From the NCBI GenBank assembly GCA_005882135.1, contig VBDR01000030.1, positions 52,052 to 116,051 on the forward strand: a stretch of DNA of 64,000 bases, written 5' to 3'. The notes below the pieces were generated by a model. The model did no database searches. It saw nothing but the letters and a program-made list of their open reading frames with translations, and was not told the DNA's origin. Position 1 is the stretch's first letter; every line of letters begins with the position of its first letter. Below, one piece after another: positions 44,895 to 60,847 of the stretch. The DNA comes from Chloroflexota bacterium. GTDB taxonomy: Bacteria; Chloroflexota; Dormibacteria; Dormibacterales; Dormibacteraceae. Position numbers and translations under genes: made by a program.

Positions 44895-44969
44895 GGGCGG
44901 CTAGCTCAGTGGGAGAGCGCTTGCCTCACACGCAAGAGGTCGTTGGTTCAACCCCAACGCCGCCCACCA
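44895..44969 (+). tRNA. tRNA-Val (anticodon CAC)
   Basis: GGGCGGC/GCCGCCC acceptor, CTTGC-CTCACAC-GCAAG, encoded CCA. Confidence 0.95.
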
Positions 44970-44974
44970 ATAGC

Positions 44975-45051
44975 GGCCCCGTCGTCTAGTGGCCTAGGAC
45001 GCAGCCCTCTCAAGGCTGAGATCGCGGGTTCGAATCCCGCCGGGGCTACCA
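44975..45051 (+). tRNA. tRNA-Glu (anticodon CTC)
   Basis: GGCCCCG...CAGCC-CTCTCAA-GGCTG...GCGGGTTCGAATCCCGC CGGGGCT ACCA. Confidence 0.95.
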
Positions 45052-45208
45052 ACTTCATGGCCCCTGAATGTGCGCCCTGCGCGCGCCCGGCGAGGCTGAG
45101 ATCGCGGGTTCGAATCCCGCCGGGGCTACCAACTTCATGGCCCCTGAATGTGCGCCCTGCGCGCGCCCGGCGAGGCTGAGATCGCGGGTTCGAATCCCGC
45201 CGGGGCTA
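45013..45208 (+). repeat. 80-bp-period tandem repeat of the tRNA-Glu 3' half plus downstream flank (about 2.45 units)
   Basis: AGGCTGAGATCGCGGGTTCGAATCCCGCCGGGGCTA recurs at 45013, 45093, 45173 with identical 45-nt linkers. Confidence 0.95.
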
Positions 45209-45332
45209 TTTCGTCACCATGACTAACATCCAGCACCCAGTGCGAGCGCAGTGGCGACGGCAATGATTGTTCGGCTGCGGGTCGCCGCAATTGATCGGAG
45301 CGGCTCTCACACTGGTCGACGCGTGACGGGTC

Positions 45333-46307
45333 TCAGGCTGGGCTCATCTGAGACTTCGTCCCCAGCAGGATAGCCTCTGCGCCCTCGACCAGCTCGTGGA
45401 CGATCTTCGCTGCCGGCTCGACCTTCTTGACGTCGCCCACTGACTGGCCCGCGTAGCACGCCATCGCGGCGATGGTTCCCACGAAGCTGCGATTGGGCGG
45501 CGCGCCCGCGAAGCGGGGAATTGGCCGCACTCCCGGCCAATCGCCTGCGGTCTCGGTCTGCAAGGCCTCAGCCCTCTCGATCGCCGATCGCAGTACGCCG
45601 TGTGTGGAAGGGCAGAGTGGGCAGTCGACGTGGAACCGGTTCGTGCGGACGCTGTCCTCTGCGCGTGCCGCGATTAGCGCCTTCACGTAATCCGGATGCG
45701 CATTGGTTTCCTCGGCAGCGAGGAACCGCGTCCCGATCCGTGCCCCCGCGGCGCCCGCGGCGATCACGCCCGCCAGCGCCCGTGCGTTGCCGATCCCGCC
45801 TGCCGCCAGCACCGGAACTTTCACAGCTTCTACAACCTCGGTCAGAAGCTGGAGCACACCCAGCTGGCCGCGGATATGGCCGCCGGCCTCGATGCCTTGG
45901 GCGATGAGGAAATCGCAGCCGGCGGCCTCGGCCGCGACCGCCTCTTCGAGCGACCCCGTCTGCCAGCTGGCCAGAGCACCCCCGGCATGTGCGATACGCA
46001 CCAGCTCGGCGTCGGGCCGGCCCCAGAAGAAATCGACCACCCGGCAGGCTCGGGCGGCAGCCTTGACGGCCTCCGTATCGACGACCGGGATCAGGAAGTT
46101 AAGGGCGAAGGGCTTCTTGGTCTGGGTGCGGATGAGGTCCACGCGTGCCTCCACCTCGTTAGGAGTCAGCCCGGCGACCGTGTTCGTGCCCAGGCCGCCA
46201 GCCTGCGACACTGCTGCTGCCAGTTCGGGCCCGCCAACCGAGCCCATGCCTGACATCTGAATCGGCGCCTCGACGCCGACTAGCTCAGTGAAGGTTGTTC
46301 TCAGCAT
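45333..46307 (-). CDS. nitronate monooxygenase / 2-nitropropane dioxygenase-like
   Basis: TELVGVEAPIQMSGMGSVGGPELAAAVSQAGGLGTN, AGCDFLIAQGIEAGGHIRG, PVLAAGGIGNARALAGVIAAGAAGARIGTRFL. Confidence 0.92.
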   Translation of the reverse strand: MLRTTFTELVGVEAPIQMSGMGSVGGPELAAAVSQAGGLGTNTVAGLTPNEVEARVDLIRTQTKKPFALNFLIPVVDTEAVKAAARACRVVDFFWGRPDAELVRIAHAGGALASWQTGSLEEAVAAEAAGCDFLIAQGIEAGGHIRGQLGVLQLLTEVVEAVKVPVLAAGGIGNARALAGVIAAGAAGARIGTRFLAAEETNAHPDYVKALIAARAEDSVRTNRFHVDCPLCPSTHGVLRSAIERAEALQTETAGDWPGVRPIPRFAGAPPNRSFVGTIAAMACYAGQSVGDVKKVEPAAKIVHELVEGAEAILLGTKSQMSPA

Positions 46308-46463
46308 GGCTTTAGCCCTCCTTCCGCTGCCATAGGCTCGCTCCTTGATGAGAGTCTGCGCCTCCACAAAGCATTGGGAATCGCGCGATCGCGCTATTTG
46401 TAGGACTGGCGGCCGGAGATCGAAGTCAGCAGAAGACGATCCGAGGTTTCTTAGGTGTCGCCC

Positions 46464-46481
46464 CGAATCCCGCCGGGGCTA
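46464..46481 (+). repeat. diverged tRNA-Glu 3'-end copy (att-like)
   Basis: CGAATCCCGCCGGGGCTA identical to the tRNA-Glu 3' end, followed by diverged TACCAAC...GTGAATCCGCACGCCTGGCGAG. Confidence 0.75.
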
Positions 46482-46654
46482 TACCAACCTGACGCACTTC
46501 AACCCGTGAATCCGCACGCCTGGCGAGCGTCTCGTCCAACACATATAGGCTCGTTTCTCGCCAGGAAGGCCGAATTTTCGAGCGCGGCTCAATGGAGTTG
46601 CGCGCCGTCGGTGGTGACCCCAGGGCCGAGGCCCTGGGGTCGACGGTGGATCTA

Positions 46655-47146
46655 TTAGCCGAACGAGTACTGCGCCGTGTAGACGCCGAACGGGCCCTGC
46701 GGTGTTGGGGAGACGATGGCTGTCCCCTGACCGTGCAAGTCAGCCAGCCCGCCCGACCCAGAGAGGACGAAATGCGCTTCCGACACTCCCGAGGTGTTAG
46801 TCGTTCCGGCGATGTTGTCGAAGACGAGAGTTCCCGTTCGACCGCCTACGGCACATGTGCAAGTGGCATTCCCCTGGAGGTTCTGGGAGCCGTCGGGATG
46901 GGTCACGATGTGGAGCTGTTCGGTGAAGTTGCCGGTGATATCACCTGTCACCACTCCCGCCGGGAAAGAGAGGGTGACGAACGCGTTGCCATCGGCCATG
47001 CGGAAACCAGACGGCACCGGCGCCGCCACGAAGAAGAACGTGCCGGCCACTGATATGGGGCTCGACGCCGCGACCGGCTGGACCGCTACGAGGGCGGCTC
47101 CAGCCGCCAGCACCAAGGTCAGCAATCTCGTCCTAAATCGGATCAT
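46655..47146 (-). CDS. secreted allene-oxide-cyclase-barrel/DUF3224-like protein
   Basis: Signal peptide MIRFRTRLLTLVLAAGAALVAVQPVAAS; same frame as, but separate from, the SnoaL pseudogene. Confidence 0.6.
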   Translation of the reverse strand: MIRFRTRLLTLVLAAGAALVAVQPVAASSPISVAGTFFFVAAPVPSGFRMADGNAFVTLSFPAGVVTGDITGNFTEQLHIVTHPDGSQNLQGNATCTCAVGGRTGTLVFDNIAGTTNTSGVSEAHFVLSGSGGLADLHGQGTAIVSPTPQGPFGVYTAQYSFG

Positions 47147-47159
47147 GGGGCCCTCCTCG

Positions 47160-47596
47160 TTAGCTGATAGCGGGATGCGGCGTGAGCCCGAGCTGGGCCA
47201 GGATTTCGGCTTGGTCGAAGTATTCGCGCTGCGTCTTGATCCGCCCATCGCGGTCGACGATCCCGACACTAGCGCCTGCACGTCGACATGCTTGTTAGTT
47301 GCGGGCAGCAGCTCGCCGGTCGGAAGCGGGAGTGGCCCGCCGTTGGTTCCTGCCGATGCGTACTCCACCGCGACGGCATCGCCCTGCTCGACGATGCGCC
47401 TGAGCGTCACCTGCACATCCGGGAACGCGCCAAACATCTGCGCATAGAACGCGACCACCGCTTGACGTCCTTTGAACGTCGGCATCCCTGGCCACGTGAG
47501 CTCAGCATCGTCCGCGTACATGTCTCCAATCGGGTTCAGGTCGTGCGCATTGACCGCCGCATTGAGTCGCCGCACACGATCCGCTATCGCTTTCAT
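47160..47596 (-). pseudogene. SnoaL-like (NTF2 fold) gene with 1-nt frameshift
   Basis: N-terminal half closely matches 52687..53124; frame shifts near 47270-47277, where the paralogous C-terminus VGIVDRDGRIKTQREYFDQAEILAQLG resumes. Confidence 0.75.
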
Positions 47597-47650
47597 TGCA
47601 ACTCCTCCTATCCGTTGTTGGCGACATCGTCAGGGTCCGGCGGCACGGCT

Positions 47651-47668
47651 CGAATCAGGGAAACCCCT
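47651..47668 (+). promoter_or_regulatory. shared operator-like motif CGAATCAGGGAAACCCCT
   Basis: Exact inverted copy at 52617-52634; related copy at 52556-52574. Confidence 0.65.
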
Positions 47669-47699
47669 ATGTCTTAAATCCATCGACGGCAGGCATAAG

Positions 47700-50501
47700 A
47701 TGGGCCGGATGTTCCTGGGGAGGGACGCGGAGCAAGCCCGGATCGATGCACTCCTGGAGCACGCTCGCTCAGGTGTAAGCGGAGCCCTCATCGTCAGCGG
47801 CGAGCCGGGAATCGGTAAGAGCGCCTTGCTGAGCTACGCGGCCGACATGGCCCTCGATATGACGATGTTGTCAGCCACAGGGGTCAAGGCTGAATCCGAG
47901 CTCGCCTTTTCTGGACTTGCTCAGCTCCTGCATCCCATCCTCGACCTGATCGACGAAATTCCGAAGCCACAGGCGGCGGCGCTCGCCAGTGCGCTGGCCT
48001 TCGGTCCACCTGTGATGTCCGATCCATTCGCTGTCTCGGCGGCAACGCTCAGTCTCATCGCAGCAGCGGCCGAGAACAGCCCGCTGTTGGCGGCTGTCGA
48101 CGATGCTCACTGGCTCGACGCAGCCTCGCGGGGGGCGCTGGCGTTCGCGGTTCGTCGCCTGCATGCCGATCGAGTCGCATTCATCTTCGTGATCCGCGAA
48201 GGTGAGAAGACCGATCTCCAGTTCGCGGACTTCCCCCGAATGACCCTGCAGGGCGTCGGCTTCGAGACGTGCCGCGAACTGCTCGCACGGGGCGCTGGGT
48301 CGCCGGTGGCCGCCAGGGTCGCCCAGCGCATATGGGAAGAGACGCAGGGCAATCCTCTTGCGATCCTCGAAACCCCACGTCTGCTGACAGCAGCCCAGCT
48401 ATTGGGAACCGAGCCGCTGCCTGAGCTACTTCCAGCTGGACCTGGAATTCAGATGTCGTTCGAGCGCCGCGTCGCCAGCCTTCCGAAAAGGACCCAGATG
48501 GCTCTCCTCGTCGCGGCCGCATCACAATCCGGCTCCATCAAAGAGATGGCGCGAGCGTATGCCAGCAGTGAGGTAGCTCTGGTCGACCTGGACTCCGCCG
48601 AAGCGGCCGGACTGATCTCGAACGACGGTCTCACGATCCAGTTTCGACATCCCTTGGTGCGCGCGGCTGTCTATCAGGCGGCCGCGCCCGCGGACCGGCG
48701 TGCCGCTCATCGGGCGCTCGCAAGCTCTGCTGAGGTCGATGGTTCACCGAGTGAGCGCGCCTGGCATCTCGCGGCTGCGGCGCAAGGAGAAGACGAGGAG
48801 GTGGCGGCGGCCCTCGAAGCGGTCGCCAACGATGCTCGCCGGCGTAGCGGCCCCGCTGCAGCATGGCGCGCCTTTGAAAGGGCGGCGCGATTGACGCCGG
48901 ACCCCGAGCAACGCGCGCGACGGCTGCACGAGGCAGGCAGCGATGCTTACGTTGCGGGCCAGTCAGAGCGATCGAGGGCCTTGTTAGACGAGGCGCATGT
49001 CCTGGCGCGAGAAATGAGCCTGCGCGCCGACATAGAGCACACGCGCGGGCGCATCGAGATGTGGACACGGTCCCCGGCTGCCGCCCGCACGATTCTGCTC
49101 AAGGCGGCCGAGCAGATCGAAGCTCACGACCCAGCCAAGGCCACTCTCATGCTGGTGGACGCAGCTACCACCACCACCCAAGAAGTCGATCCCGACGAGA
49201 GCATGGTGCAGCAGTCGCTGCGAGTCTCTCAACGCGCGTATGAGCTGGGCTGCCAGGTCGGAGGCATCACCCAGGCGGCAGCCGAAGGCGCATATGGCAA
49301 GGCGCTACTCATCCTCGGACAGAACGCCGACGGACATCGTCTACTCCTTCGCTCGCTAGAAGCGATTGACGCGAGAGAATCGCCCTGGCTGGCGATCCAG
49401 CTGATCCAGTACGCCCACTGCTTCCTCTATTTCGAAGAGTTCGATCGGATGCGTGCCCCCCTGGAACGTCTGATTGCCGAGGCCCGCGAGTCTAGCGCGC
49501 CCGGGGCTCTTCCCTATGCGCTCGGTCACTTGTCCGAACTGGACTTCCGAACCGGACGCTGGTCGGCGGCTCACACTGAGGCAGCCGAGGCCGTCGAGCT
49601 CGCCACCGAGCTTGGCCACAGGTTCTCCTTGATATATGCGCTCGCCTGCCTTTCCTGGATCGAGGCGGCCCGCGGATTGGAAGCGGATTGCGAAGCTCAC
49701 CTTGCAAGGCTATGGGATGTCTCCGAGCACGCCCGGGACGCTGTCGGCGGCTATGTTGCTCGTATCAGCGGGCTTTTGGACCTGGGGATGGGGCGGAATG
49801 AGCAGGCCGTCAAACATCTCCTGCGGGTGGTCGAGGCCTTGGCGCGGTTAGGACTGGTTATGCCATATCTATTTCAGGAAGTCCCGGACTTGATCGAAGC
49901 GTATGTCTACACGGGGCAGCGCTCGCAGGCGCAGGCGGCGCTCATGGTCTTGCAGGAGCAGGCGGCGACTGCTCCCGGATTGTGGCCTCGTGCCGCTGCT
50001 GCTCGATCCCGCGGGCTTCTGGAGGAGGATTTCCAGTCGGCATTCGAGGAGGCCTTGCATCTGCATGATCGGGTGCAGATGCCATTCGAGCGGGCGCGAA
50101 CCGAGCTCTGTTACGGAGAGCGACTACGGAGGGCTCGTCGCCGTGCCGAGGCTCGCGACCAGCTGCACGCGGCACTTCAAACTTTCGAACGCTTGGGCGC
50201 TGAGCCGTGGGCCGATCGCGCGCGCAATGAGCTGCGAGCTACGGGAGAAACCGTGCGCCGCGACCGATCGGCTTCAGATGAGCTGACTCTTCAAGAAGTG
50301 CAGGTCGCGTTGAAGGTGGCCGAGGGTGCCACTAACCGGGAGGCTGCCGCCGCCCTCTTCCTCAGCCCGAAGACGATCGAAGCGCATCTCAGCCGCATCT
50401 ACAGCAAGCTCAGAATCCGTTCACGTACCGAACTGGCTCACCGGTTTGCTCAAGAGAGCTCGATGGGGCCTGCAGCCGGTACGCCGACCTCCAGGCGGTA
50501 G
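47700..50501 (+). CDS. LuxR-family regulator with AAA ATPase domain (LAL/MalT-like)
   Basis: LGRDAEQARIDALLEHA, SGEPGIGKSALLSYAA; C-terminal GATNREAAAALFLSPKTIEAHLSRIYSKLRIRSRTELA. Confidence 0.93.
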   Translation: MGRMFLGRDAEQARIDALLEHARSGVSGALIVSGEPGIGKSALLSYAADMALDMTMLSATGVKAESELAFSGLAQLLHPILDLIDEIPKPQAAALASALAFGPPVMSDPFAVSAATLSLIAAAAENSPLLAAVDDAHWLDAASRGALAFAVRRLHADRVAFIFVIREGEKTDLQFADFPRMTLQGVGFETCRELLARGAGSPVAARVAQRIWEETQGNPLAILETPRLLTAAQLLGTEPLPELLPAGPGIQMSFERRVASLPKRTQMALLVAAASQSGSIKEMARAYASSEVALVDLDSAEAAGLISNDGLTIQFRHPLVRAAVYQAAAPADRRAAHRALASSAEVDGSPSERAWHLAAAAQGEDEEVAAALEAVANDARRRSGPAAAWRAFERAARLTPDPEQRARRLHEAGSDAYVAGQSERSRALLDEAHVLAREMSLRADIEHTRGRIEMWTRSPAAARTILLKAAEQIEAHDPAKATLMLVDAATTTTQEVDPDESMVQQSLRVSQRAYELGCQVGGITQAAAEGAYGKALLILGQNADGHRLLLRSLEAIDARESPWLAIQLIQYAHCFLYFEEFDRMRAPLERLIAEARESSAPGALPYALGHLSELDFRTGRWSAAHTEAAEAVELATELGHRFSLIYALACLSWIEAARGLEADCEAHLARLWDVSEHARDAVGGYVARISGLLDLGMGRNEQAVKHLLRVVEALARLGLVMPYLFQEVPDLIEAYVYTGQRSQAQAALMVLQEQAATAPGLWPRAAAARSRGLLEEDFQSAFEEALHLHDRVQMPFERARTELCYGERLRRARRRAEARDQLHAALQTFERLGAEPWADRARNELRATGETVRRDRSASDELTLQEVQVALKVAEGATNREAAAALFLSPKTIEAHLSRIYSKLRIRSRTELAHRFAQESSMGPAAGTPTSRR

Positions 50502-51010
50502 CGCCGCAGGTGTTGCACTGGTACTCCGACTGATTCTCGGAGTTCTTTCGGCCGGTCGCCTTCCAGATCAGACGTGAACGCTTGATCACACTGCATACAC
50601 ACGGTTTCGACGTCGCGTGGGTTCAATCGGGTTTGTCGGACATGTTGTTTGTCGGACATGTCTACACCTCCAAAGGTTTGGCTTGCCGTCGGCTCGCCGC
50701 GATACCTGCGAAGACGTATTCGGCATCTCTTCGGACGCCAATCGATTAGCGCAGAGTTGTGTCCGAACTGGGACGGCAGGCTCATGAAGTAAAGGCCTGG
50801 CTCCGACAGCACCACGCCTCGCTCGTGAGCCGGGAAGTGGCTGCCGGCAGCCGCCGGCAGTTGGATCCAGCCGCGGCTCAGCTCGATGTCCGCTCGCAGA
50901 TCAACGTCGTTTGTGACGTGCAGTCCTTCAAGAAGCAGCGGGCGAGACACCGCTGATACTCCGGCCGCATATGGACGACGACCTTCGAGGCGCGGCTTGC
51001 CAGTTTGCCC
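50500..51010 (-). pseudogene. remnant of the 3' part of a flavin monooxygenase plus small zinc-ribbon ORF
   Basis: GWIQLPAAAGSHFPAHERGVVLSEPGLYFMSLPSQFGHNSALID parallels the intact gene at 51278..52513; small ORF has an in-frame TGA. Confidence 0.75.
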
Positions 51011-51119
51011 GCGTCAAAGAGGCGGCGTGCACGCTTTTCCGAATCGGGCGTAAGGCGGGCGGATCGAATTTCGCCGTCGCGGGCATCATGCGCGTGCCGA
51101 GGGTCGAAGGTGTCGAGTA

Positions 51120-51300
51120 GCCTGCGGCGCGACCAATCGCGAGGCGGGCGCGGCCTATTCCTGTGTCCTAAGACGATCGTAGCGCACCTCAGTCGCATCT
51201 ACAGCAAGCTCGGCATCAGGTCGCGAACGGAGCTCGCCTACCGGTTCGCGAAGGAAGGCTGGTCCATCGCACGGGGGTCATGCAGGCCTCCACGCGGTAG
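51120..51300 (+). pseudogene. remnant of a LuxR-regulator C-terminal HTH
   Basis: FLCPKTIVAHLSRIYSKLGIRSRTELAYRFAKE preceded in another frame by GATNREAGAA. Confidence 0.75.
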
Positions 51301-52513
51301 CCCCGCAGATCTTGCACTGATACTCGAGCTTTCCATCGTCTTTCCGCCCGGTCGACTTCCAGACGAGTCCAGATCGCTTGATCACACTACACACGCATGG
51401 CTTGGACCCGGTGTGGGTGGAATCGGGCTTTTTGGACATTGTCTGCACCTCCACTGGTTTAGTGTTGGATCGCGCCGCAGCGATCCTCGCGACGATGTAT
51501 TCAGCGTCTCTACCTGCCCCGTCGATGAGCGCCGAATTGTGCCCGTACATGAAGGGCAGGCCCATGAAGTAAAGGCCACGCTCCGCCAGCACAACGCCTC
51601 GCCGATGGGCTGGTAGGTGGCCGCCAGTTGTTGATGGCAGTTGGATCCAGCTGAAGTCGTGCTTGAATCCGGTACACCAGACCACGGTTCCGACGTCGAG
51701 GACGCGACCGTCTTCCAGGCGCGGCTTGCCACCCTCGACGCCGGCTACTCGCGGAGCGCGGGTAACCCCAGCCGCGATCAGGTCCTTTTCACGGATGCGG
51801 ACAAGCGGAGTGCCCTTGCGGCCAAGCTGGCGACCGAGCCTTCGGCCGATTTGCGTATCTACAGTCAGCAAGCGCGTGGCCAGCCACCATGTGGGGCGCG
51901 AATAAAAGCTGGCGGAGACGGTGCCCGTCGGTCGGCCGGATAGCCAGACCCTATGGAATTGAACGCTGTCCAGCGCAATCTCCGCCCCCGAGTTGCCGGC
52001 GCCGACGACCAACACATCGCCTTCGGCGAGTTGTGATGGTTGGCGATAGGCGGAGGAATGCAGCTGCTTGATGTCTTTGTCGAGCTGGACAGCGAACGCG
52101 GGCAAGTTCGGGTCTGGGTAACCTCCGGTGGCCACCACCACCTGGTTCGCGTTGAGCCGCAGGGCACCGGCGCAAAGTTCGTATCCCTGCTCAAGGCGCC
52201 TCAGCGAATCGACGCGAATTCCGAGTCGAATCGGGACTTCGAAACGCTGAGCGTAGCTCTCCAGGTACGCAGCCATCTCGTCTTTGGTCGGCAGCGCCGA
52301 CGCTCGAGCCGGAAAAGGCATGCCAGGAAGCGCGTCCAGCCGGGCTGGGGTGAACAGGCGCAGTGAGTCCCAGCGCCTCCGCCAGGCGTCGCCGACCCGT
52401 TCATGGGCATCAACGATGGTGAAGTCAATGCCTCGCCTTGAAAGGTGGTAGCCGGTTGCCAGGCCGGCCTGGCCTCCTCCGACGACCACGACTTCGAAAT
52501 GACCTGAACGCAT
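51278..52513 (-). CDS. flavin-containing monooxygenase-like FAD/NAD(P) oxidoreductase with C-terminal zinc-ribbon-like extension
   Basis: EVVVVGGGQAGLATGYHLSRRGIDFTIVDAHERVGDAWRRRWDSLRLFTPA; VLVVGAGNSGAEIA; C-terminal CVC...CKIC. Confidence 0.9.
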   Translation of the reverse strand: MRSGHFEVVVVGGGQAGLATGYHLSRRGIDFTIVDAHERVGDAWRRRWDSLRLFTPARLDALPGMPFPARASALPTKDEMAAYLESYAQRFEVPIRLGIRVDSLRRLEQGYELCAGALRLNANQVVVATGGYPDPNLPAFAVQLDKDIKQLHSSAYRQPSQLAEGDVLVVGAGNSGAEIALDSVQFHRVWLSGRPTGTVSASFYSRPTWWLATRLLTVDTQIGRRLGRQLGRKGTPLVRIREKDLIAAGVTRAPRVAGVEGGKPRLEDGRVLDVGTVVWCTGFKHDFSWIQLPSTTGGHLPAHRRGVVLAERGLYFMGLPFMYGHNSALIDGAGRDAEYIVARIAAARSNTKPVEVQTMSKKPDSTHTGSKPCVCSVIKRSGLVWKSTGRKDDGKLEYQCKICGATAWRPA

Positions 52514-52555
52514 CTCTGGCTGTGCGCGTCAGCCTACCGCCGCTGGGCTGGATTT

Positions 52556-52574
52556 GAATCGGGGAAACCCCCAT
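52556..52574 (+). promoter_or_regulatory. operator-like motif GAATCGGGGAAACCCCCAT
   Basis: Matches 47651 motif; between divergent 52513(-) and 52687(+). Confidence 0.55.
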
Positions 52575-52616
52575 ACATGGCATTGAAGGGGTCGGCGATT
52601 CCGAGTCGCAAGAACG

Positions 52617-52634
52617 AGGGGTTTCCCTGATTCG
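52617..52634 (-). promoter_or_regulatory. operator-like motif (inverted copy of CGAATCAGGGAAACCCCT)
   Basis: 18/18 identity in reverse complement to 47651-47668. Confidence 0.65.
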
Positions 52635-52686
52635 TGGAATTGCTGCAGCCACCACGATGTCTACGAAAACTCCAAGGAGGACAGCG

Positions 52687-53124
52687 ATGCGAGACATGAC
52701 GGACCGTGTAAGACGACTGAACTCAGCGGTGAACGCTCACGACCTTAATCCGATTGGCGACATGTATGCCAACGATGCCGAGCTGAAGTGGCCAGGTCTG
52801 CCGGCGATGAAGGGACGTCAGGCAGTGGTCGAGTTTTACGCCCAGATGTTCGGCGCCTTCCCAGACCTCCACGTGACGCTCGAACGCATAGCCGAGCAGG
52901 ACGGCGTCGTTGCCGCCGAATATGAGGCAGGCGCGACCAACAGCGGACCGCTGCCAATGCCCGGCGGGCAGTTCCTACCGCCAACGCAAAGGCGGATCGC
53001 AGTTCACGCGACCAGCGTCGGGACCGTCGATCACGAAGGCCGGATCAAAGTCCAGCATGAGTACTTTGATCAACTCGATGTGCTGACTCAGCTCGGCATC
53101 CTGGCTGTACCCACTGCGCGTTGA
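52687..53124 (+). CDS. SnoaL-like (NTF2-fold) protein
   Basis: RRLNSAVNAHDLNPIGDMYANDAELKWPG...GRQAVVEFYAQMFGAFPDLHVTLERI. Confidence 0.85.
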   Translation: MRDMTDRVRRLNSAVNAHDLNPIGDMYANDAELKWPGLPAMKGRQAVVEFYAQMFGAFPDLHVTLERIAEQDGVVAAEYEAGATNSGPLPMPGGQFLPPTQRRIAVHATSVGTVDHEGRIKVQHEYFDQLDVLTQLGILAVPTAR

Positions 53125-53220
53125 CGGAGCAGAGGGGACTTGGCGATGAGTCGGTTTACTGCTCTCTTCGTCCCTGGATGGGTCCACGACACCGTCATCG
53201 TCGGGATTGAGGACAGATAA

Positions 53221-53382
53221 ATGAGCGAAAACTATCGGTTCTACAAGCTGAAGATGGCCGAGCTGCGCGCCTGCCTAGCGGGTTCGGCCGAACTGCGCCG
53301 CCAGATGAAGGAGCTTCTCGCCGCTGTTGCGCGATGCGAGGCGATGTGGACGCTCGAAGACCGCATCGAGAAGAATCGTTGA
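53221..53382 (+). CDS. small hypothetical protein (53 aa)
   Basis: MSENYRFYKLKMAELRACLAGSAELRRQMKELLAAVARCEAMWTLEDRIEKNR; below track cutoff. Confidence 0.3.
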   Translation: MSENYRFYKLKMAELRACLAGSAELRRQMKELLAAVARCEAMWTLEDRIEKNR

Positions 53383-53431
53383 GCGAGCTGCTGCCGGCTG
53401 AGAAGATCCGGTCTGCAGCTGCGGTGTCCCG

Positions 53432-53659
53432 CACACGTTCTGGAACCCGACCGATCAGCCTGCCAGGCTGCTGGAAATCATCTGCAAGGCGGGCTTTGAG
53501 AATTATTTCGTCGAGATTTCCGAGCTATTCGCGACAGGCGCCAAGCCGGGCGGTACGGAGCACGAGGCGATCGCGGCCCGGTACAACGAGAGTCACTTCA
53601 TGGACTGGGTGCCTGAGCTCAAAGCGCGGTATGGGTTGAAACTTCTGGGCGAGTTCTAA
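53432..53659 (+). pseudogene. cupin-family C-terminal fragment
   Basis: HTFWNPTDQPARLLEIICKAGFENYFVEISELF...ARYGLKLLGEF with no N-terminal cupin barrel upstream. Confidence 0.55.
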
Positions 53660-53748
53660 TCGGGTTCATGAGCCACAAACGGCGAAGGGCGAGTCGGTCC
53701 AAAAAGTTCGAATAGCGTCCCGCTTTGTGCTACTTCATCTGATGCGCG

Positions 53749-53765
53749 GCGTGATAGCATCACGC
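53749..53765. promoter_or_regulatory. TA1 operator: perfect 7-bp dyad over -10
   Basis: GCGTGAT-AGC-ATCACGC; TAGCAT ends 8 nt before ATG 53769. Confidence 0.65.
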
Positions 53766-53768
53766 ATC

Positions 53769-54008
53769 ATGCGAACCACGATCGACCTCGATCCGACGGT
53801 CGTGAAAGAGCTCAAGCGGCGCAGCCGGGGCGCCGGCAAGAGCATGGGCCAACTGGCCTCAGAGCTGCTGGCGACGTCGCTCCGAGAGCAGGGGAGCCGT
53901 CAGAAGCATCCCGCCGTGTTGGAGTGGATCGCGAAGGATCTCGGCCGGCCGCTGGTTGACCTAGAAGACAAGGAAGCGGTTAGGGCGGCGCTAGACGGGC
54001 CTCGATGA
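53769..54008 (+). CDS. TA1 antitoxin (ribbon-helix-helix-like)
   Basis: MRTTIDLDPTVVKELKRRSRGAGKSMGQLASELLATSL. Confidence 0.82.
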   Translation: MRTTIDLDPTVVKELKRRSRGAGKSMGQLASELLATSLREQGSRQKHPAVLEWIAKDLGRPLVDLEDKEAVRAALDGPR

Positions 54009-54469
54009 GCGCCACCATCGACGCGAACATCCTCGTCTATGCGAGCAATCAGGCCGACCCGGTCCACGCGCAGGCCGGACGGCTGCTTCAGGTCCTGGCC
54101 GCCGGCCCGGACCTTCTATACCTGTTCTGGCCCGTCGTAGTGGGATATCTACGCATCGTTAGCCACTCGGCGATTCTTTCGAGGCCGCTAAGCCCTCGTG
54201 ACGCTGCTGGCAACGTCGAATCTCTACTTAGCCGGGGACACGTCCGCGCGCTGGGCGAGGGGGAGGGATTCTGGGAATTGTTCCGAGCTACGAGCCGCGA
54301 TCAGGCGCGCGGCAACGACGTCCCGGACGCACACCTTGTGACTCTGATGAGGCAGCATGGTGTGCGGCGAATCTACAGCCGGGACGCCGGGCTACGCCGG
54401 TTTGCTGACATCGAAGTCGTCGATCCCTTCGCGTCTGCACCGGGCGGCGGACGTCGGTCTCGCGCTTAG
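54005..54469 (+). CDS. TA1 toxin, PIN-domain (VapC-like)
   Basis: TIDANILVYASNQADPVHAQA...GNDVPDAHLVTLMRQHGVRRIYSRDAGLRRFADIEVVDPF. Confidence 0.88.
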   Translation: MSATIDANILVYASNQADPVHAQAGRLLQVLAAGPDLLYLFWPVVVGYLRIVSHSAILSRPLSPRDAAGNVESLLSRGHVRALGEGEGFWELFRATSRDQARGNDVPDAHLVTLMRQHGVRRIYSRDAGLRRFADIEVVDPFASAPGGGRRSRA

Positions 54470-54615
54470 GTCGGGCTATTTCCGCACGATTAGGTCGGCG
54501 GCGCCATTGTTGCGCCGCGCCAGCGTCGGCTTTGGTGTCGTGGGCGTGGCTCTGACCTACAAGCGCACCAAGCGCCGAAAGGCTCGGTTTGACGCGGCAT
54601 ATATCTAGGCTTACG

Positions 54616-54631
54616 GGCAGGATATACTGCC
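54616..54631. promoter_or_regulatory. TA2 operator dyad over -10 TATACT
   Basis: GGCAG-GATATA-CTGCC; TATACT ends 7 nt before ATG 54636. Confidence 0.65.
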
Positions 54632-54635
54632 TGAG

Positions 54636-54830
54636 ATGAGCAAGAGGTTGGTTGACATCGATGATCGCCTGCTGGCCGCTGCCCGGGCCGAACTCGGAAC
54701 CGACACCATCAAGGCGACCGTGAATGAAGCCTTGCGGCGGGCGGCGCGGGCCCGAGCGCAGGAGATCCGCAAGGCGCTGGACGGGCTCGCGGAGAGGTCG
54801 TTCTCAGATCGCGGCGAAGCTTGGCGCTGA
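54636..54830 (+). CDS. TA2 antitoxin (VapB, type II RHH)
   Basis: MSKRLVDIDDRLLAAARAELGTDTIKATVNEALRRA. Confidence 0.87.
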   Translation: MSKRLVDIDDRLLAAARAELGTDTIKATVNEALRRAARARAQEIRKALDGLAERSFSDRGEAWR

Positions 54831-55234
54831 CGCATCTCGCTGACACCAGTGTTCTGACTCGCGTTCGCCATGCCGACATCTACGGAAGGCTCGCGAATCT
54901 GCTTGAGGCGGCGGCGCTGGCGCGCGCCGACATCTCGGATCTCGAGTTGGGCTTTACGGCCCGCAACGCTCGCGAGTGGGACAAGATTCAGCACGACCTA
55001 CGGCCGTTTTCCGTCCTCGAAACCTCGCCGGCGCACGTGCATAGGGCGCTTCGGGTGCAGCGTGCCCTCGCGGAAAACGGACTCCGCGGACGGAAGGTGC
55101 CGGATCTCCTTGTCGCAGCAGCAGCTGAAGAAGGAGGATTGGTGCTACTCCACTACGACACCGACTTCGACCTGATCGCCAAGGTGACGCATCAGCCTTG
55201 CGAATGGATCGTGCCCCGCGGGAGCATCGATTAG
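54821..55234 (+). CDS. TA2 toxin, PIN-domain VapC
   Basis: LADTSVLTRVRH...GRKVPDLLVAAAAEEGGLVLLHYDTDFDLIA; overlaps antitoxin. Confidence 0.88.
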   Translation: MALTHLADTSVLTRVRHADIYGRLANLLEAAALARADISDLELGFTARNAREWDKIQHDLRPFSVLETSPAHVHRALRVQRALAENGLRGRKVPDLLVAAAAEEGGLVLLHYDTDFDLIAKVTHQPCEWIVPRGSID

Positions 55235-55291
55235 CTCTAGAGGTCGACCTCCTCGAACCGGCATCGGAGAATCGGTGTAGGACTTGTCGCC

Positions 55292-55312
55292 CGAATCCCG
55301 CCGGTGCTACCA
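55292..55312 (+). repeat. diverged tRNA-Glu 3'-end copy (att-like, retains CCA)
   Basis: CGAATCCCGCCGGTGCTACCA vs tRNA-Glu CGAATCCCGCCGGGGCTACCA (1 mismatch). Confidence 0.75.
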
Positions 55313-55353
55313 CTATCGCCATCATAGAATGTGATAGTAAAGTGCCGATATAA

Positions 55354-55839
55354 TCATTCGGGCGGAGGACCGACGATCTCAATCCCGAACCGGTGAGCCA
55401 CCTCCGCCAGCCGCTGCTGGTCGACGGGCGCGCGGGGCGGGATTGTAAGCTCAGCCGCGGGCTCGCCCGCCGCGGCCACGAAGTCAGCGAAGGTCGACGG
55501 AAAGGAAAAAGTGAGTGCGCGCGCCCCATCTTCACCGACCTCGAAGGTGTGCACGACACCCCGAGGCGCGAAGACCCATGTCCGTTCCACAGCCACAATG
55601 ACGCGCTTGCCGCAGTAGAAGGTCATCGAGCCCTCGAGCACGTACCAGGCCTCGTCCTCCTCGACATGGATGTGACGCGGGACGGCGTAGTCGGGCGGCA
55701 TGGTCTGATCGAGCATGGCGAACCGCCCCTCGGTCTCGGCGCCGCCGGCCTTGCGTTGAAGGAGCGCGCCGACAAACCAGTAAGCCTGTCCCTCCCCGTC
55801 GGCGAGGGAGTAAATACGATCGGCGGTTCTGGTCTGCAT
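55354..55839 (-). CDS. cupin-domain protein
   Basis: PRHIHVEEDEAWYVLEGSMTFYCG...APRGVVHTFEV. Confidence 0.88.
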   Translation of the reverse strand: MQTRTADRIYSLADGEGQAYWFVGALLQRKAGGAETEGRFAMLDQTMPPDYAVPRHIHVEEDEAWYVLEGSMTFYCGKRVIVAVERTWVFAPRGVVHTFEVGEDGARALTFSFPSTFADFVAAAGEPAAELTIPPRAPVDQQRLAEVAHRFGIEIVGPPPE

Positions 55840-55844
55840 GGTGT

Positions 55845-56426
55845 CTACCTCCCTGGCCGCTCGACCACGCGCAAGGCGAGGTCGCTGATAATCGCGGGCG
55901 CGTCGCGCCCCGGAACCCCGGCGTCGACCAACGACTTCCAGAATGGGAAATCGAGCAGGGCCTTCAGCGCGGCTCGGCGCTTCCGTCCGATTCCAGCCCC
56001 GAGCGCTGCACTAATGAGCGCGTCGAGCGCGCGATCTTGCATCCGCGCCGCGACGGCGAGGGCCGGCACGCTGCGGGCCTCCCGCCTGCACGCATCAAGC
56101 CACTCCTCCCCGCGCTCGTAGCACCGGCAGGATTCGACGATGACCTTTTCGAGCTTCTCAGTCGGATTTGCCATTCCGGAGAACAAGGACGCCAGCTCAC
56201 CCGCAGCCGGCAGGCGGGCACCGGCGGCAAAGGCGGCCTGGGCGCAGGCTGGAATGAGGTCGTCCAGCGTCGGGAAGTGCCGATAGACCGTGGCCGTGGA
56301 CACATGCGATGCCACGCCAATCTCGGCCCAGCTGGTTTGAGTGATGCCCTGCCGGCCGTGGAGCCGAACGGCAGCATCGATGATGCGCTCGCGCGTGCCA
56401 CTGATCAGCTCGGCCCGCCGCGCCAT
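55845..56426 (-). CDS. TetR/AcrR family regulator
   Basis: TRERIIDAAVRLHGRQGITQTSWAEIGVASHVSTATVYRHFPTLDDL. Confidence 0.92.
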   Translation of the reverse strand: MARRAELISGTRERIIDAAVRLHGRQGITQTSWAEIGVASHVSTATVYRHFPTLDDLIPACAQAAFAAGARLPAAGELASLFSGMANPTEKLEKVIVESCRCYERGEEWLDACRREARSVPALAVAARMQDRALDALISAALGAGIGRKRRAALKALLDFPFWKSLVDAGVPGRDAPAIISDLALRVVERPGR

Positions 56427-56553
56427 CCGGTAGCGACGAGTGGCTATTTGGTGCGAAACCATTTCTCGCGAATTATATAGCGGCGCCACGTAGCGCCATC
56501 GATCTCTCTCTCGATCATTGGCTCTCTAGCCTCGAGTCGCGTTCGGACTACTC

Positions 56554-56580
56554 CTACAACACTGACCCGACATGTTGTAG
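56554..56580. promoter_or_regulatory. TA3 operator: inverted repeat CTACAACA-N11-TGTTGTAG
   Basis: Perfect 8-bp arms immediately upstream of TAGCGT and GTG 56595. Confidence 0.6.
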
Positions 56581-56594
56581 TAGCGTGTCTTTTC

Positions 56595-56900
56595 GTGACG
56601 AAGAAGGTCGCGGACGAGATTGACGTACTCGCAGCTGCATCGATCGCTGGTCGGTCGGCGGAGACGGTGCGCCGCTGGGTATGGTCTGGCCGCCTGCGGG
56701 CGCACAAGCGCGGAAACAAGCTCTTGATCGATCGTTCGGATCTCGAGCGTCTCCTCAAGTCGAGCGCCGCGCGGAAGAGCCTGACGCTGGCGGAATGGCT
56801 CGAGTCTCTGGAGCGCTCGGCTCTGAAATCCGGAGCCAAAGCCCGATCGGCCGCCGATCTCGTCCTCGCCGATCGTCGCGCGAGGTCCGACGAGCTGTAG
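56595..56900 (+). CDS. TA3 antitoxin (MerR/excisionase-type HTH)
   Basis: LAAASIAGRSAETVRRWVWSGRLRAHKRGNKLLIDRSDLERLL. Confidence 0.8.
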   Translation: MTKKVADEIDVLAAASIAGRSAETVRRWVWSGRLRAHKRGNKLLIDRSDLERLLKSSAARKSLTLAEWLESLERSALKSGAKARSAADLVLADRRARSDEL

Positions 56901-56904
56901 TTCG

Positions 56905-57324
56905 ATGCCCGTACTGGATGCCAGTGTCGTCATCGACTGCATCGCGCCTGACGTCTCTCTTTCGTCTCGTGCCGTCCGCACCCTGGCGCGACTGGCGGCC
57001 GAAGGAGCTGAGCTGGTTGCGCCTGCCTTGCTCGTCCAGGAATGTGCAAACGCACTGCTGACGGGCATCCGGAAGGGTCGATGGTCTGGGGCTGCCGGCG
57101 ACCAGGCCTATGGGTTCCTCGTCGGCCTACCTCTGAAGCTCACCGACGACGCGCGCCACGTCGACCGCGCCTGGGAGCTGTCGCGGCGATTTGACAATCA
57201 CCCGATCTACGGCATGCTTTACGTCGCGGTCGCCGAGGCCGCCGGCATCGACCTGATCACTGCAGACGAAACTCTTCGGTCGCGCCTGCGGCATTTGGCG
57301 TGGATCAAGGCTCCCGATCCCTGA
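56905..57324 (+). CDS. TA3 toxin, PIN-domain
   Basis: MPVLDASVVIDCIAPD...LVAPALLVQECANALL...HPIYGMLYVAVAEAAGIDLITADETLRSRL. Confidence 0.87.
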   Translation: MPVLDASVVIDCIAPDVSLSSRAVRTLARLAAEGAELVAPALLVQECANALLTGIRKGRWSGAAGDQAYGFLVGLPLKLTDDARHVDRAWELSRRFDNHPIYGMLYVAVAEAAGIDLITADETLRSRLRHLAWIKAPDP

Positions 57325-57449
57325 GGCACAGTAGAAGGTCGTCCAGGCGGTTCGAATAGCGTCCCGTTTGGGCTACCGCTTTTGGTGCCCTTGTCCTCCG
57401 CAGGTGACGTGCCGCGAGAAAGGAAATTGTGTGGAGTTACACTCCGGCC

Positions 57450-60680: not shown

Positions 60681-60847
60681 CCCAGGCCGCAAATCTGGTC
60701 TGGCCATGCCAAGCCTGATTACGAACCTCTGGCGTCAACGATGCGTGTCGCGTTCATCTGAAACGCCCCGGTGGCACCAACGGCGCGGAATCCCTCAAGA
60801 AAGCATCCTACACATCTTACGCGTTGGTGGTGTGTATACTGGCGCAG

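Follow-up and report, generated by a model that had tools for sequence, protein, structure and literature searches.

What places a single gene between two copies of the 3′ end of a tRNA gene? The question is raised by the window, a 64,000-nucleotide stretch of a Dormibacteraceae (Chloroflexota) genome, in which a tRNA-Glu gene is followed by copies of its own end. An earlier note on this DNA had read the arrangement as a one-gene cassette with att-like tRNA ends and no recombinase of its own. The features of the window are as follows.

44895..44969, plus strand: tRNA-Val(CAC), conserved neighbour of the platform; the pair is kept in nearly all relatives
44975..45051, plus strand: tRNA-Glu(CTC), the platform and putative attB; its T-loop motif GGTTCGAAT fills half-site positions 11-19, counted from the central CT
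45050..45209, plus strand: two A-type units of 80 bp each, whose ends are 36 nt of the tRNA-Glu 3′ half
45210..46482, plus strand: nitronate monooxygenase cassette, 1273 bp, with an independent copy in contig L048
45333..46307, minus strand: nitronate monooxygenase, 324 aa, the sole cassette gene (PF03060, E=3.6e-45)
46436..46482, plus strand: B-type cassette end, arm GAGGTTTCTTAGGTGTCGCCC plus core CGAATCCCGCCGGGGCTAT
46483..53733, plus strand: segment after the nitronate cassette, with DUF3224/SnoaL-like, AAA-LuxR regulator and flavoprotein genes
53683..53733, plus strand: C-type end (GTTCGAATAGCGTCCCGCTTTGTGCTAC)
53734..55310, plus strand: segment with two antitoxin/PIN toxin pairs (53742-54469 and 54636-55234)
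55270..55310, plus strand: B-type end, core with 1 mismatch
55311..57376, plus strand: segment with cupin, TetR regulator and HTH_17/PIN pair (56595-57324), terminating in a C-type site
57325..57376, plus strand: that C-type site, a variant end, closing the cupin/TetR segment
60809..61464, plus strand: RHH/PIN toxin-antitoxin unit, recurring in G007, G050 and G051

The tandem 80-bp units, each made of 36 nt of the tRNA-Glu 3′ half and a further 44 bp, lie at 45013-45092 and 45093-45172, and a third, 36-nt copy occupies 45173-45208. The 18-mer CGAATCCCGCCGGGGCTA is found at 45191-45208 and again at 46464-46481, extending to 19 nt with the next T (to 46482), at a spacing of 1273 bp. This recurrence, from which the earlier note had started, is confirmed. 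Moreover, the whole 2.7-Mb genome holds four copies of the 18-mer, every one at the tRNA-Glu locus, whilst a reversed control gave 0. The diverged version of the downstream flank that had been described after the second copy does exist, although the similarity is weak (local alignment score 31, shuffle p=0.0015), and the single gene said to lie between the copies is indeed a nitronate monooxygenase and the sole called gene there. Beyond what had been noticed before, a copy of the tRNA-Glu end with 1 mismatch lies at 55292-55309, and variant ends (GTTCGAATAGCGTCCCG..GGGCTAC or similar) lie at 53683-53733 and 57325-57376. A minus-strand near-match at window position 56118 was dropped, being inside the TetR gene and without an arm. 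From 45.2 kb to the end of the window genes are short, with a median of 139 aa versus 280 aa upstream. The array downstream holds five PIN-domain toxin genes, each directly 3′ of a small gene that by its position looks like a candidate antitoxin; Pfam backs two of these putative antitoxins as RHH and HTH_17 and, weakly, a third as Phd.

We then considered whether the nitronate monooxygenase gene is a resident gene merely flanked by repeats, as a resident nitronate monooxygenase stands near tRNA-Glu in several relatives. This was ruled out, the cassette gene having 32-36% identity to the resident homologues of the family and the opposite orientation. Its nearest relative (59%; G022:C16, L037) lies in a stretch without a tRNA-Glu end. 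The cassette gene is foreign. Gene calls and Pfam reveal no integration or transfer genes in the cassette, only the nitronate monooxygenase. The cassette runs from a tRNA-type end at 45209 to a B-type end at 46482, both of which end types recur at other cassettes, and it sits behind the third tRNA-end copy with the tRNA itself intact. From the order of insertion that we infer, it would be the newest or near-newest member of the array. The 160 bp before its B end (window 46320-46481) are 78% identical to L076:12235-12395 in G050, where the cassette gene differs (alpha/beta hydrolase). This shared terminal block, the upstream region of the nitronate gene, is perhaps a promoter.

Metagenome contigs could have been misjoined at short tRNA repeats, and contigs do often break at tRNA-Glu (G003, G018 and G019). 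However, the separately assembled same-species contig L048 is 99.76% identical over 2.9 kb and has both junctions around the gene identical, and therefore these are no assembly accident. The same cassettes are also found in the same orientation in many independently assembled species, all of which makes an assembly artefact highly improbable. Within L048 (2910-4139; QHVV01000172.1, from an Acidobacteria bin and apparently misbinned) an IS481-family element lies inside the tRNA-Glu end copy adjoining the nitronate cassette.

The earlier note had proposed a search of related genomes for the empty site, and had held that a gene always in place with the repeat absent would speak against a cassette. 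The opposite was found in G013, G011 and G016, which have tRNA-Glu and tandem end copies without the nitronate gene. The exact empty site of the nitronate cassette was not found within the same species, nor was a circular form of the cassette seen, in genomes that are all fragmented MAGs, one per species; the circle junction would be expected to read …GCCGGGGCTATTTCGTCACC….

How widespread are such loci? We searched 110 genomes of the class, of which the family makes up 42, all of them fragmented MAGs with one per species; reversed-pattern controls gave none. Arrays with B- or C-type ends behind tRNA-Glu are present in 18 of the 42 family genomes and in 7 of the 14 genera, and in these family arrays both tRNA-Glu(CTC) and tRNA-Glu(TTC) serve as platform. 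The C pattern has 17 matches in 12 of the 110 class genomes (reversed control 0). One C copy, L091 (G106:C291:1012-1038), belongs to another family and suggests wider transfer. A search of IMG/VR for viral carriers of B or C ends returned 0 matches. The curated set comprises 97 sites (39 tRNA ends, 13 A, 26 B and 19 C), and two window sites missed by score were added after this curation. Orientation is uniform: on the 18 contigs also holding tRNA-Glu, all non-tRNA sites (39/39) are on the tRNA strand and downstream of it, and four more contigs that hold two or more sites have them all on one strand. When A units and five gaps >3.2 kb are left out, the shortest cassette gap is 0.39 kb and the longest 3.1 kb, the median being ~1.2 kb. 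Amongst the cargo are oxidoreductases, hydrolases, a methyltransferase, a DNA glycosylase, two-component systems, regulators and toxin-antitoxin pairs; this cargo is foreign and rich in toxin-antitoxin genes. The comparative data thus support the one-gene cassette of the earlier note, as one of an array.

Three end types, A, B and C, are found beside unrelated cargo, and the last bases GGGCTAC are common to all. The A end is 36 nt of the tRNA-Glu 3′ half. The B end has arms ..CGGTTTCGTAGGTGTCGCCT or ..CGGTATAGCAGTTGTCGCCT, followed by CGAATCCCGCCGGGGCTAC, and leave-one-out tests show most B arms to be conserved among unrelated cassettes, whilst the C end reads ..TCCAGGTGGTTCGAATAGCGTCCCGCTTGGGCTAC. 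The A unit, of 80-93 bp, is found alone behind C ends in G049 and G050, and may therefore act as a geneless mini-cassette or a spare attB-like landing site. Moreover, one cassette with two-component genes and a 225-aa gene ends in a B site in G023 (L026:3040-5827) and in a C site in G017 (L073:9299-12057); therefore, end types are exchangeable on one cargo.

Could the copies be tRNA fragments duplicated by slippage, or by homologous recombination at a hotspot, without any site-specific system? The A units of the window are exact tandem repeats, a product that replication slippage can yield. However, A units also stand alone behind C ends, and the arms beyond the tRNA-derived core are conserved across unrelated cassettes. 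End copies are also rare at other tRNAs: downstream copies occur in 10 of 33 cases for tRNA-Glu(CTC) against 3 for all non-Glu tRNAs pooled, the control at the same loci. Lastly, homology breaks at sites far above chance. Arrays of different genomes gave 314 alignments. In 39 of these both partners have a site where the alignment starts, against a null mean of 0.28 (maximum 3), and in 20 both have one where it stops (null mean 0.16, maximum 3). Many of these site-bounded alignments are A-unit pairs, but about a dozen involve gene-sized cassettes. We therefore regard duplication of this kind as improbable.

The gene-sized cassettes have moved as units. The cassette behind tRNA-Glu(TTC) in G013 (genus g1) is that behind a C end in G017 (genus g2), at 96.4% over 728 bp, and G011 and G017, also of different genera (g1 and g2), share 2.7 kb at 99.1%. 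A VapBC-like cassette follows B ends in G003 and G007, whereas in the window and in G063 it follows C ends; the first antitoxin/PIN pair of the window (53742-54469) is likewise found after B or C ends in G003, G007 and G063. The RHH/PIN cassette at 60809 in the window array has three other settings: in G007 it follows tRNA-Glu directly, in G051 a C end and in G050 a B end. Window positions 46604-50871 are 94% identical in G007, where they follow a VapBC-like cassette, whilst the chromosomal flank is 84% identical. Across these genomes one cassette can follow ends of different types, the breakpoints falling at ..GGGCTAC, and the comparison shows transfer between genera.

In outline this resembles a chromosomal integron, in that gene-sized, often single-gene cassettes with one distal site form an array anchored at one end and rich in toxin-antitoxin pairs. 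An integron-like system would have the cassette ends act as folded single strands in the manner of attC. However, a conserved hairpin is missing from both alignments, B and C (about -0.9 and -1.5 kcal/mol), there is no GTTRRRY boundary, and no integron integrase was found near the arrays. Only one full-length tyrosine recombinase was found in the genome, the XerC-like C73; it is unlinked to the arrays and was ruled out as the cassette enzyme. The arrays have no IntI, attI or attC fold and are not members of the integrons; such a mechanism is very doubtful indeed.

What, then, might insert the cassettes? None of the ~45 scanned array proteins is a recombinase except one in G051, and only two genomes have a recombinase local to the array. 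The G051 enzyme is a 529-aa large serine recombinase (LSR) with domains PF00239+PF07508+PF13408, whose best NCBIfam is CcrB, below the equivalog cut-off; it is encoded in a 7.6-kb element flanked by tRNA-Glu and a B-type end. The LSR reading frame extends into tRNA-Glu, and C-end cassettes directly follow the element. A copy with 96% identity stands at tRNA-Glu in G061 and likewise reads into the tRNA; an LSR is linked to tRNA-Glu sites in these two genomes only. Other LSRs of the family are not near sites and were ruled out as local enzymes. In G019 and G025, LSR relatives at some 34-40% identity overlap the ends of tRNA-Gly. Genes of this CcrB-like clade running into tRNA 3′ ends (Glu, Gly) are found at L066:15794-17383, L099:7816-8467, L109:6180-7733 and L113:6771-8090. 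The elements in G051, G019 and G025 start with the inverted word TTCGAAC at about positions 14-22, and it is possible that the clade are general T-loop readers whose elements begin with this inverted T-loop word. The G051-type LSR was not found in the window genome or its genus, where PF07508 occurs in 1 of 17 genomes, and therefore the enzyme is absent, lost or unsampled there.

The geometry of the sites bears on the class of enzyme. In the half-sites of serine integrases the 9-bp zinc-domain motif spans positions 11-19 of attB but 16-24 of attP (PMC3783163). Counted from the CT of GGGG-CT-AC, a centre of our choosing, the T-loop word GGTTCGAAT fills positions 11-19 of tRNA-Glu, whereas in C ends five extra bases, AGCGT, put it at 16-24, exactly 5 bp further out. 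The C ends match the published 5-bp shift of attP versus attB. The B ends are without the shifted GGTTCGAAT and have.TGTCGCCT at 16-24 instead, where the LSR element's own attR carries CTGTCGGCT; a link between the arm of that element and the B arms (2.4 bits) is suggestive and statistically weak. TTCG is enriched near cassette starts, being present at positions 10-20 of 13 of 81 (shuffle mean 2.7, maximum 9). A recognisable second half-site, clear in the LSR-bearing elements, is missing at most cassette starts, including that of the nitronate cassette, which has no TTCG at positions 10-20.

Alternatively, tyrosine (phage-type) integrases might have built the same array by inserting in the T-loop and pushing the old 3′ end aside; several such enzymes with different arms (B, C) would then have shared one target gene. 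Indeed, tRNA 3′ ends are their classical target, tyrosine recombinases exist elsewhere in most of the family genomes, and B ends retain tRNA sequence from CGAAT onward, as a T-loop crossover would leave. However, no PF00589 protein is encoded on any of the ~45 site-bearing contigs in the 42 family genomes, and the enzymes found at tRNA-Glu are LSRs only. Moreover, C ends diverge inside the supposed shared core (the AGCGT insertion) yet the tRNAs in front of these cassettes are intact, so that exchange must lie at GGGCTAC, the extreme 3′ end. We therefore think tyrosine integrases unlikely to be responsible. Three tandem tyrosine recombinases (a recombinase trio) in L105 (G013:C90) and in G050:C6 are unrelated to the arrays.

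Taken together, we favour as the probable explanation an array of integrase-less, CIME-like cassettes accreted at tRNA-Glu and served in trans by CcrB-like LSRs. Here we infer both insertion by a serine integrase and its supply in trans. The tRNA-Glu 3′ end and the tandem A copies would act as attB, and each cassette would bear an attP-type half-site (B or C) at its distal end. Insertion would leave the cassette between attL (tRNA end plus cassette start) and attR (cassette end plus older DNA). A CcrB-like LSR, the most likely recombinase class, would read the conserved tRNA T-loop sequence GTTCGAA and could be supplied by integrative elements like those at tRNA-Glu in G051 and G061; its recombination should depend on the 5-bp spacer AGCGT and on GTTCGAAT. 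Reversal by large serine integrases requires an accessory factor, and therefore arrays would be stable in lineages that have lost the helper, as may be the case for the window's genus. More tentatively, the locus may represent a system of cassette capture that parallels integrons without being related to them, with tRNA-Glu and spare copies of its 3′ end as the landing site and Ccr-like LSRs acting in trans. Such a system, which we would put no higher than a reasonable conjecture, would have the T-loop word, universal among tRNAs, at 11-19 in attB and displaced 5 bp in attP, with cassettes shuffled between genera.

A literature search of open papers found no published description of tRNA-Glu cassette arrays, but several known systems are comparable. 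The closest curated family of the LSR is CcrB, as in SCC elements with their Ccr recombinases. SCC elements form composite tandem islands at one 3′ gene end; the gene that they target, their host phylum and the size of their cargo are different. CIMEs are as a rule deletion derivatives related to an adjacent ICE, unlike the many unrelated gene-sized cassettes with standardised ends seen here. As in CIMEs and accretion islands, the units are att-bounded, without integration or transfer genes and stacked in tandem; CIMEs are mobilised in trans (cited in PMC3146451). A candidate helper for the tRNA-Glu arrays would be the LSR element at tRNA-Glu in G051 and G061. The closest precedent is the array of ssrA islands in Dehalococcoides; the tRNA-Glu arrays are a system of that kind, with another target and with units reduced to gene size and given standardised ends. 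Those islands lie in tandem on the downstream side of an RNA gene, each between 20-bp RNA-gene ends, with a conserved motif just upstream of the repeats; 15 are without an integration module, a CcrB-like serine recombinase of about 540 aa is next to attL, and the authors put insertion in the T-loop (McMurdie 2011, PMC3146451). The two share the phylum, tandem units with 3′-end direct repeats, many without an integration module, and a CcrB-like enzyme, that of 529 aa adjoining tRNA-Glu in two genomes here. However, the target here is tRNA-Glu (both isoacceptors) and not tmRNA, the units are mostly gene-sized (0.4-3 kb) and without an integration module, there are three end types and extra landing-site copies, and exchange maps to GGGCTAC and not to the T-loop. 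No CcrB-like module is found in the window, and at tRNA-Glu it is found only in G051 and G061.

If the favoured reading is true, these arrays would be a second route, besides integrons, by which bacteria build up a stock of single genes at one fixed site and exchange them, and one that has spread through a family of uncultured soil bacteria of the Chloroflexota. It would also mean that the serine integrases of this clade find tRNA genes via the T-loop, attP being the same word moved by 5 bp. Moreover, the arrays would explain the origin of many of the toxin-antitoxin and small metabolic genes in these genomes.
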